Source: Aurantimicrobium photophilum (GTDB taxonomy: Bacteria; Actinomycetota; Actinomycetes; Actinomycetales; Microbacteriaceae). Taken from it: DNA of 64,000 bases. Below are positions 35,565 through 37,510 of this stretch, piece after piece. Every line of letters begins with the position of its first letter. Position 1 is the stretch's first letter. Where the stretch lies: positions 868,001-932,000 of the forward strand of contig NZ_CP023994.1 of NCBI RefSeq assembly GCF_003194085.1, written 5' to 3'. The notes beneath the pieces are model-generated. The model had not been told where the DNA came from. It made no database searches and was given only the letters and a program-made list of their open reading frames with translations. The translations under genes and the position numbers were made by a program.

Positions 35565-35834
35565 CTAGGCGAGGGAGAGAAACAGCTTTTCGAGCTCCGC
35601 AACGGTCGGCGCGTTCTCTTTTGTTTCACCTGAGGCCATGCACTCCTGCATCGCCTTCGCAATGATGGCAAAACCAGCCTTATCAATGGCACCTGAAACG
35701 GCTGAAAGCTGCGTGACCACTGCACGACAATCTCCGCCTGCTTCCACAGCTGTAATCACAGCTGCCAGCTGACCTTGAGCTCGCTTGAGGCGATTGACTA
35801 TTGCCTTCTGCTCTTCGGGTGTTACGTCAGTCAT
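35565..35834 (-). CDS. CsoR/FrmR-family regulator, CstR-like (persulfide-sensing type)
   Basis: 89 residues from ATG 35834, with AAAGGAG seven bases upstream. The all-helical DUF156 fold is clear ([37 protein letters not shown]). It has Cys36 and Cys65 but Ala61 where copper-sensing CsoR has His61. The Cys-Cys pair 29 residues apart without the His is the CstR arrangement, which senses sulfane sulfur and derepresses sulfur-detoxification genes. It overlaps the CoA-disulfide reductase/rhodanese gene (ATGA), supporting that role. Sensing chemistry is inferred from the residues and the neighbour. Confidence 0.85.
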
Positions 35835-37483
35835 TTCTGATCTCCTTTCGAGGCCATGCCAGCCTTCCACGTGAGATAGCCACCGTTGAGGTTGACTACG
35901 TCAATTCCTTCTTGCGCCAAGATGCGCGCAGCTGTGTGACCACGCTGACCAACTTGGCAGTACACAACTACTTTCTGACCCGAAAGTTCTCTGATGTGCT
36001 CGCGGAGAACATCGATCGGAAAACTGAGGCTTCCTTCAATATGTCCGTACTTATATTCGCCCTCGGTCCGAACATCAACAAGCACAGCACCCGAATCCAG
36101 TGCACTATCGAGTTCATGCCACTCAATGACCTTGGTCAGACCCTCTGCAATGTTTCTATTGACATACCCGAGCATGTTGATGGGGTCTTTGGCAGAACCG
36201 TGTTGGGGATCATAGGCAAGTTCTAATTGAGCAAGATCACTAGCAGTGATTCCCGCAAAGATTGCTGTTGAAATGACGTCAATGCGCTTATCCACACCGT
36301 GACCGCCCACAGCCTGGGCACCGAGAATGAGATCAGTTTCAGGATCCACCATGAGCTTGAATCTCATGGTTTGTGCACCTGGATAGTAGGCAGCATGATC
36401 TGCGGGATGGGTATGGATTACTCGGACAGGACGTCCAGCTGCACGTAATGCCTTTTCGCTCCAACCCACTGTTGCGGCCACTAAGCCATCGAAGGAAAGA
36501 ATGGATGTTCCCAGTGTTGGAGTTGCGGGAACAGTGCGTGCCCCTGCAATCGCGTTCGCTACCGAGTGGCCATGTCTATTAGCCAATCCTGCAAGGGTGG
36601 CAAGCCGCTCATCACCAGAAATCGCATCAATCTTTTCTGCAGCATCACCGACAGCAAAGATATTGGGATCTGAAGTCCGCTGTTCGTTATCTACCCAAAT
36701 TCCACCGTTGTGACCGATTTTGAGTCCAGCTTCTTCAGCAAGATGAACCTCTGGCTTCACACCCAGTGCTGAGAAGATGACATCGGTGCTGATAACTTCT
36801 CCATCCGCAAGGGTTACGCTGTTTCGCGTAAAAGAAGTGATGGAACTCTCTAAACGAAGATCAACCCCCGATGCGCGCACTCGTTGGGCAACCGCGATAG
36901 CAAGCTCTGGGTCGAGATAGCTCAACAGCTGTTTGCCGCGATGAATGAGAGTGACTTTCATTCCTCGTTTGATGAGATTCTCTGCAAGCTCGAGACCGAT
37001 AAATCCCCCACCAAGAATCACGGCATGTTCAGGGTTGGGATACAACCACGCAATGGCCTTATCCATGTCTTCCACTGTGCGCATGGCCAAAATCCACTTG
37101 GCATCTGGACCTTCAGGCATGGTGGCTTTGGCACCTGGTGAAAGGACGAGATAGTCATACTTTTCGACGTAGGTTACTTTCCAGACCCTGTCATATATGG
37201 TGACAGTTTTGGACTGACGATCAATCGAGAGAACTTCATGACGGACGCGGACGTCCAAGTTGAATCGAGCACCCAACGTAATGGGGTTTTGAAGAATGAG
37301 AAGCGATCGCTTTTCAATGGTTTCACTCAGGTGATAGGGCAAGCCACAGTTCGCATAGGAGACATAACCACTGCGTTCGAGCACCAGAATGTGTGCCGTC
37401 TCGTCGAGACGACGCAGACGAGTAGCTGCCGACATTCCGCCAGCAACACCACCAATAACCACGATTTTTTTGGGCCGAACCAT
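35831..37483 (-). CDS. FAD-dependent CoA-disulfide reductase with C-terminal rhodanese domain (CoADR-RHD)
   Basis: 550 residues. FAD site [16 protein letters not shown], redox Cys46 in [12 protein letters not shown]-binding [16 protein letters not shown]-binding FAVGDAAE, then a rhodanese domain (about 450-550) with persulfide Cys509 in [10 protein letters not shown]. Such fusions reduce CoA disulfide/persulfide or polysulfide with NAD(P)H and handle sulfane sulfur. It is the first gene of an operon with a CstR-like regulator. The predicted -10 TATGCT lies six bases before the ATG with a 16-bp palindrome abutting it. Confidence 0.9.
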
Positions 37484-37489
37484 GGTTAC

Positions 37490-37510
37490 AGCATATACCC
37501 CTAGGGGTAT
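37490..37510 (-). promoter_or_regulatory. CoADR promoter -10 with 16-bp palindrome (candidate CstR operator)
   Basis: -10 TATGCT at 37495-37490, then GTAACC and the ATG. Palindrome ATACCCCTAGGGGTAT at 37495-37510 is perfect and overlaps the upstream edge of the -10. CsoR/CstR operators have the same GC-rich centre flanked by TA-rich ends. Confidence 0.72.

Follow-up and report, generated by a model that had tools for sequence, protein, structure and literature searches.

The question raised by this locus is which stress a short operon, made up of a DUF156-type regulator gene and a reductase-rhodanese fusion gene, answers to. The window, that is, the whole stretch of 64,000 nucleotides analysed here, corresponds to G000:C1:868001-932000 of a host genome consisting of the single contig C1 (1.748 Mb). 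A sequence-only reading of it had proposed a response to sulfide or persulfide stress. Comparative evidence, namely the co-occurrence of operator site and CstR in 60 genomes, the make-up of the regulon and the presence of a separate copper CsoR, supports this proposal. With a probability of roughly 0.87, we read the module as an autoregulated sulfane-sulfur defence operon under a CstR-type repressor, its operator heading a regulon scattered over the genome. The following features, in window coordinates, make up the operon:

35565-35834, minus strand: cstR-type regulator gene, 89 aa from its ATG, DUF156/CsoR-RcnR family, with Cys36, Ala61 and Cys65
35831-35834, minus strand: ATGA overlap of 4 bases between the CoADR-Rhd stop and the cstR start, with GGAG a few bases upstream of the cstR ATG
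35831-37483, minus strand: CoADR-Rhd, a CoA-disulfide reductase/rhodanese fusion of the CoA-persulfide-reductase type, 550 aa, with Cys46 and Cys509
37492-37497, minus strand: candidate -10 element TATATG, overlapping the operator end, at a TATAwn position conserved in the genus
37495-37510, no strand assigned: predicted operator ATACCCCTAGGGGTAT, a perfect 16-bp palindrome 11 bp upstream of the CoADR-Rhd ATG

The regulator matches PF02583 (Trns_repr_metal/DUF156) with 76.5 bits against a cut-off of 22.8, the domain spanning the entire protein. Its translation bears out the claimed CstR pattern, with Cys36 and Cys65 kept and alanine in the place of the CsoR copper ligand His61; with Ala61, the protein does not carry the Cys-His-Cys Cu(I) ligand set of CsoR. 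An alignment of 73 orthologues revealed Cys36 in 73/73, Cys65 in 72/72, and Ala, Gly, Ser or Thr, never His, at position 61. Scores against the NCBIfam equivalogs FrmR (44.2 bits, 133 needed) and RcnR (20.6 bits, 138 needed) stayed below what these models demand. The second DUF156 protein of the host genome is of the Cys-His-Cys kind and adjoins a copper P-type ATPase, so that copper sensing has a protein of its own in this host.

Pfam divides CoADR-Rhd into Pyr_redox_2, a dimerisation domain and a C-terminal rhodanese domain. The proposed FAD reductase-rhodanese fusion with Cys46 and Cys509 was recovered as described, these being the sole cysteines, one in the reductase (YANCGLPY) and one in the rhodanese part (VYCQVGQR). 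Its closest solved structures are 3icr, 8a56 and 3nta. The enzyme scored 408.6 bits against TIGR03385, under the cut-off of 578.8, and other CoADR models likewise stayed under theirs; the NCBIfam CoADR equivalog model comprises 439 positions and no rhodanese domain. Since the CoADR models score under their cut-offs, the choice of substrate stays wide, and CoA, mycothiol or another persulfide may be the candidate. The overlap of the two genes together with the GGAG sequence agrees with the translational coupling stated earlier, which we regard as likely from the arrangement of the bases.

The palindrome is indeed perfect, consisting of two 8-nt arms without a loop, and lies in the 39-bp gap between CoADR-Rhd and an upstream luciferase-like gene ending at 37523. 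From base composition, the exact 16-mer ATACCCCTAGGGGTAT is expected 0.0004 times per genome. The search for further copies that had been suggested found it once, and the form ATACCCNNNNGGGTAT six times (expected 0.1; reversed control 0). That the palindrome stands beside a -10 box held in part: a TATAwn overlapping the last TAT of the palindrome is conserved in the genus, but a sigma-70 consensus scan of the palindrome region found no promoter. If TATATG is the -10 element, the transcript would be leaderless or nearly so. A palindrome with three mismatches occurs at window position 26827.

On contig C1, the scan with ATACCCNNNNGGGTAT placed the six sites as follows:

905495: before CoADR-Rhd
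934046: before a thioredoxin gene, just beyond the window
935165: before a gene for a DUF2202 protein, just beyond the window
1393273: before the long form of a small Cys-rich ORF, 1393316-1393465 (locus pair L015/L016)
1478815: before the short form of the small Cys-rich ORF, 1478649-1478774 (locus pair L015/L016)
1645032: before a lipoprotein rhodanese gene

Judging by this placement, the operator would be common to at least six host promoters. Control of rlmN and of a GNAT acetyltransferase was considered for the sites at 1393273 and 1478815. It is no longer the main reading: conserved small ORFs run divergently there, with starts 27 and 40 bp from the site that are preceded by a Shine-Dalgarno sequence, and members of their family also follow sites in unrelated genera. 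In 7 species the site of the long form is 21 bp upstream of rlmN as well, so that an effect on rlmN remains conceivable, and at 1393273 control may fall on the long small protein, on rlmN or on both. The two operators at 934-935 kb face outward, toward thioredoxin and DUF2202, and enclose divergent genes for an isoprenylcysteine-methyltransferase-like membrane protein and a DUF4395 protein (G000:C1:934072-935133; L014:3573-4634), while a transposase-like ORF pair adjoins the thioredoxin gene. The one-mismatch site AAACCCCCTGGGGTAT (L017:2923-2938, G000:C1:468422) stands just upstream of an MFS transporter gene, a possible further target. Cytochrome bd was ruled out as a regulon member in the host species, whose cydA (L290) has no site.

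Across the genus (eight species), the site precedes CoADR-Rhd by 11 bp in seven species, the eighth (G007) showing a 17-bp variant. In 8/8 species it was found 8-16 bp before the lipoprotein rhodanese, and in 8/8 also before both small Cys-rich genes; in five genomes it stands upstream of thioredoxin, at about 24 bp, and of DUF2202, at up to 33 bp. In G001, G005 and G006 (loci L081, L104 and L107), an operator lies 53 bp upstream of cydA, encoding cytochrome bd. Sites in other genera precede genes for PDO-rhodanese, rhodanese, TauE, SQR, thioredoxin and CoADR-Rhd(-TusA) as well as cstR. A Curtobacterium plasmid carries three of them in a row consisting of cstR, a small ORF missing from the listed annotation, rhodanese, DsrE, TauE, trxA and an MBL hydrolase. 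Among the recognised targets behind the examined sites, there was no metal transporter or copper gene. In GC-rich genomes, the genes near sites were called only roughly, by the longest-ORF rule, and some targets there were consequently left without a name. A membrane protein of about 410 aa follows a site in two families of the order (L126 in G027 and L137 in G038), its G027 copy showing no Pfam match; at L136:1484-1990 (G038), a site precedes the gene of a membrane protein of 168 aa that contains a GCPVCN motif and may be another sulfur gene.

To which regulator the operator belongs is answered by 60 related genomes, in which a CstR orthologue was defined by an E-value below 1e-10 and a site by an exact match to ATACCCNNNNGGGTAT. 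The orthologue occurs in 32/60 and the site in 31/60, and the two agree in 57 of the 60, with both in 30 and neither in 27 (Fisher test, 1.6e-13); the value is 1.1e-11 with the genus collapsed to one, kinship being handled by this collapse alone. The reversed motif gave 0 sites in every one of the 60. The three discordant genomes are G050 and G055, with CstR and no exact site, and G052, with sites and no detected CstR; absence of CstR from fragmented genomes may reflect the assembly. Genomes of this set with only weak, copper-type CsoR matches had no site, which points away from copper. That the operator belongs to the CstR-type regulator is well supported by these genome comparisons, and it appears sharp enough for entire sulfane-sulfur regulons to be read from sequence, across Micrococcales and beyond.

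Sharing its protein family with CsoR and RcnR, the regulator might instead sense copper (or Ni/Co), in which case the palindrome would be an operator for the metal response, and copper CsoR operators are likewise G-tract pseudopalindromes (PMC10318464, PMC3902906). This is very improbable given that His stands at position 61 in 0/73 orthologues, that genomes with only CsoR-type matches are without the site, that the recognised targets include no metal transporter, and that the host keeps its Cys-His-Cys CsoR beside the copper ATPase. Rhodaneses, persulfide dioxygenase, SQR, thioredoxin, TauE, CoADR-Rhd and cytochrome bd together form a regulon that speaks for sulfane-sulfur stress and not for copper. 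The same genes could also be taken as a general thiol-repair set under a repressor sensing other thiol-reactive stress, such as quinones, NO/nitroxyl, hypochlorite or formaldehyde. The thioredoxin in the regulon, the weak FrmR match (44 of 133 bits) and the intersection of nitroxyl signalling with sulfide homeostasis in S. aureus (PMC5480029) fit such a sensor; persulfide dioxygenase, SQR, rhodaneses, DsrE and TauE nevertheless dominate the targets and are best explained by sulfane sulfur, leaving this alternative improbable, if slightly less so than a metal sensor.

Lying in the 39-bp gap directly after the luciferase-like gene, the palindrome could finally be a terminator or structural element of that gene. 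It has neither loop nor T run, a terminator search found none, unrelated genes have the same palindrome at a constant distance upstream, and genomes that carry no CstR lack it, so we give this explanation next to no credence.

For the preferred reading, a sulfane-sulfur defence operon under a CstR-type repressor, a mechanism can be proposed in which binding of the regulator to DNA, its effector and the substrate of the enzyme, and with them repression, release by persulfide and persulfide reduction, are carried over by analogy from ScCsoR and EfCoAPR. The repressor, sitting on the palindrome that overlaps the promoter start, would shut off CoADR-Rhd and itself. Accumulating persulfides or polysulfides would react with Cys36, leading to persulfidation or to a bridge to Cys65 of the neighbouring subunit. 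As in ScCsoR and CstR, the modified repressor would then leave the operator, and CoADR-Rhd would be made. If the enzyme works like EfCoAPR, sulfane sulfur would be taken up on Cys509 of the rhodanese domain and passed to bound CoA, and the CoA persulfide (or another low-molecular-weight persulfide) would be reduced at Cys46/FAD by NAD(P)H, yielding H2S. The lipoprotein rhodanese, the thioredoxin, the DUF2202 protein and the two small Cys-rich proteins, whose genes lie behind the host sites, would be induced along with it.

In Streptomyces coelicolor, ScCsoR (SCO0620) binds ATACCn6GGTAT, is released by polysulfide via Cys37, and controls a rhodanese, PDO and a sulfite transporter (PMC7533328). 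Both regulators are two-cysteine DUF156 repressors (Cys37/Cys66 in ScCsoR, Cys36/Cys65 in the window) with a 16-bp palindromic operator, and the window palindrome matches the ScCsoR consensus exactly. The systems differ in that the window operon is led by CoADR-Rhd and that of ScCsoR by PDO-rhodanese, and in that the window cstR comes last, overlapping CoADR-Rhd, with targets scattered over the genome. CstR of Enterococcus faecalis controls CoAPR, which transfers a persulfide from Cys508 to CoA before reduction at Cys42/FAD (PMC9405070; PDB 8a56). Operators aside, this enzyme (Cys42/Cys508) aligns with the window CoADR-Rhd (Cys46/Cys509) over 535 residues; compared with the cst-like operon of E. 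faecalis, the window holds a two-gene operon of an actinobacterium without linked single-domain rhodaneses. The fusion architecture and the cysteines are shared with CoADR-RHD of Bacillus anthracis (3icr) and Npsr of Shewanella (3nta). Two further CstR-like repressors of sulfur oxidation genes, Bacillus licheniformis YrkD and Thermus thermophilus TTHA1953 (PMC9918477, PMC10318464), have other targets; the sequence bound by TTHA1953, TACNNTACNNNNGTANNGTA, has no C/G run, unlike the window palindrome. The window operon clearly belongs to the CstR kind and is an ordinary case of it, every part being already known. What the operator adds is a tie of cytochrome bd and SQR to the sulfane-sulfur regulon in some species. 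It also places a widespread family of small proteins, missing from family libraries, in a functional setting, so that the function of this family becomes directly testable.

This family, the commonest target of the operator, is an unnamed protein of 37-61 aa with the pattern MCxxxxCxxCxKxTWxGCGxHx13C. In more than 20 of the genomes examined, such small ORFs stand behind the site; the host has a long and a short copy, and a CstR-type operator precedes each of them. Codon variants in the genus are synonymous to non-synonymous at 43:8 for the long and 26:14 for the short form, and this excess indicates that the ORFs are coding. Pfam, NCBIfam and the PDB sequences hold no relative, and a literature search on the family found nothing relevant. 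An AlphaFold model reached a pLDDT of about 90 over residues 1-40; a fold search with it gave no match (best E-value 3.6), some of the weak names being zinc-finger-like. Cys7, Cys10, Cys18 and His21 look like a zinc site, which would leave Cys2 and Cys35 free. Of these residues, the search pattern fixed all except Cys35; an alignment for which sequences needed no more than four Cys to qualify and were then selected visually nevertheless revealed the same invariant residues.

A scan of genome contigs uncovered more than 590 relatives, and the best 80 of these loci are almost wholly from Actinobacteria, among them Agromyces, Arthrobacter, Microbacterium, Cryobacterium, Corynebacterium, Gordonia, Nocardia and Dietzia, with one metagenome record labelled Acidobacteria. 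ATACCN6GGTAT lies within 120 bp of 44 of the 99 small ORFs in these best 80 loci, mostly about 35 bp from the ATG, and four control palindromes were found near none of the 99. Such a site is present in 42 of the best 80 loci; in a further 17, cstR lies no more than 700 bp away, and nine loci lack both cstR and an upstream site. Among 246 class members, 97 carry the small protein and 116 CstR, with both in 70 (Fisher test, 2e-10) and the two within 6.5 kb of each other in 39. Set against these 70 genomes, 46 have CstR without the small protein and 27 the small protein without detected CstR, making the association strong and not obligate. Membership of the small family in the regulon of the CstR operator is well supported by this pattern of occurrence. 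Somewhat below even odds, we propose that the protein is a dedicated part of the actinobacterial sulfane-sulfur response, probably binding Zn through Cys7/Cys10/Cys18/His21. The two remaining cysteines, Cys2 and Cys35, could then carry or buffer sulfane sulfur, or relay it among rhodanese, thioredoxin and CoADR-Rhd or PDO. Its chemistry as a sulfane-sulfur carrier or scavenger is a guess, as is, within the carrier model, the exposure of Cys2 after removal of the Met.

Where CstR is missing, the small protein can persist while the site is usually lost: it is absent from 23 of the 27 genomes with the small protein and no detected CstR. Three of the four exceptions (G203, G222 and G283) carry it directly before the small gene, and these assemblies comprise 120-220 contigs, so that cstR may simply be missing from them. 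Genomes of family f44 (e.g. G083 and G181), mostly of 1.2-1.5 Mb, keep the small protein with no detected CstR and no site, and their copy would be constitutive or otherwise regulated.
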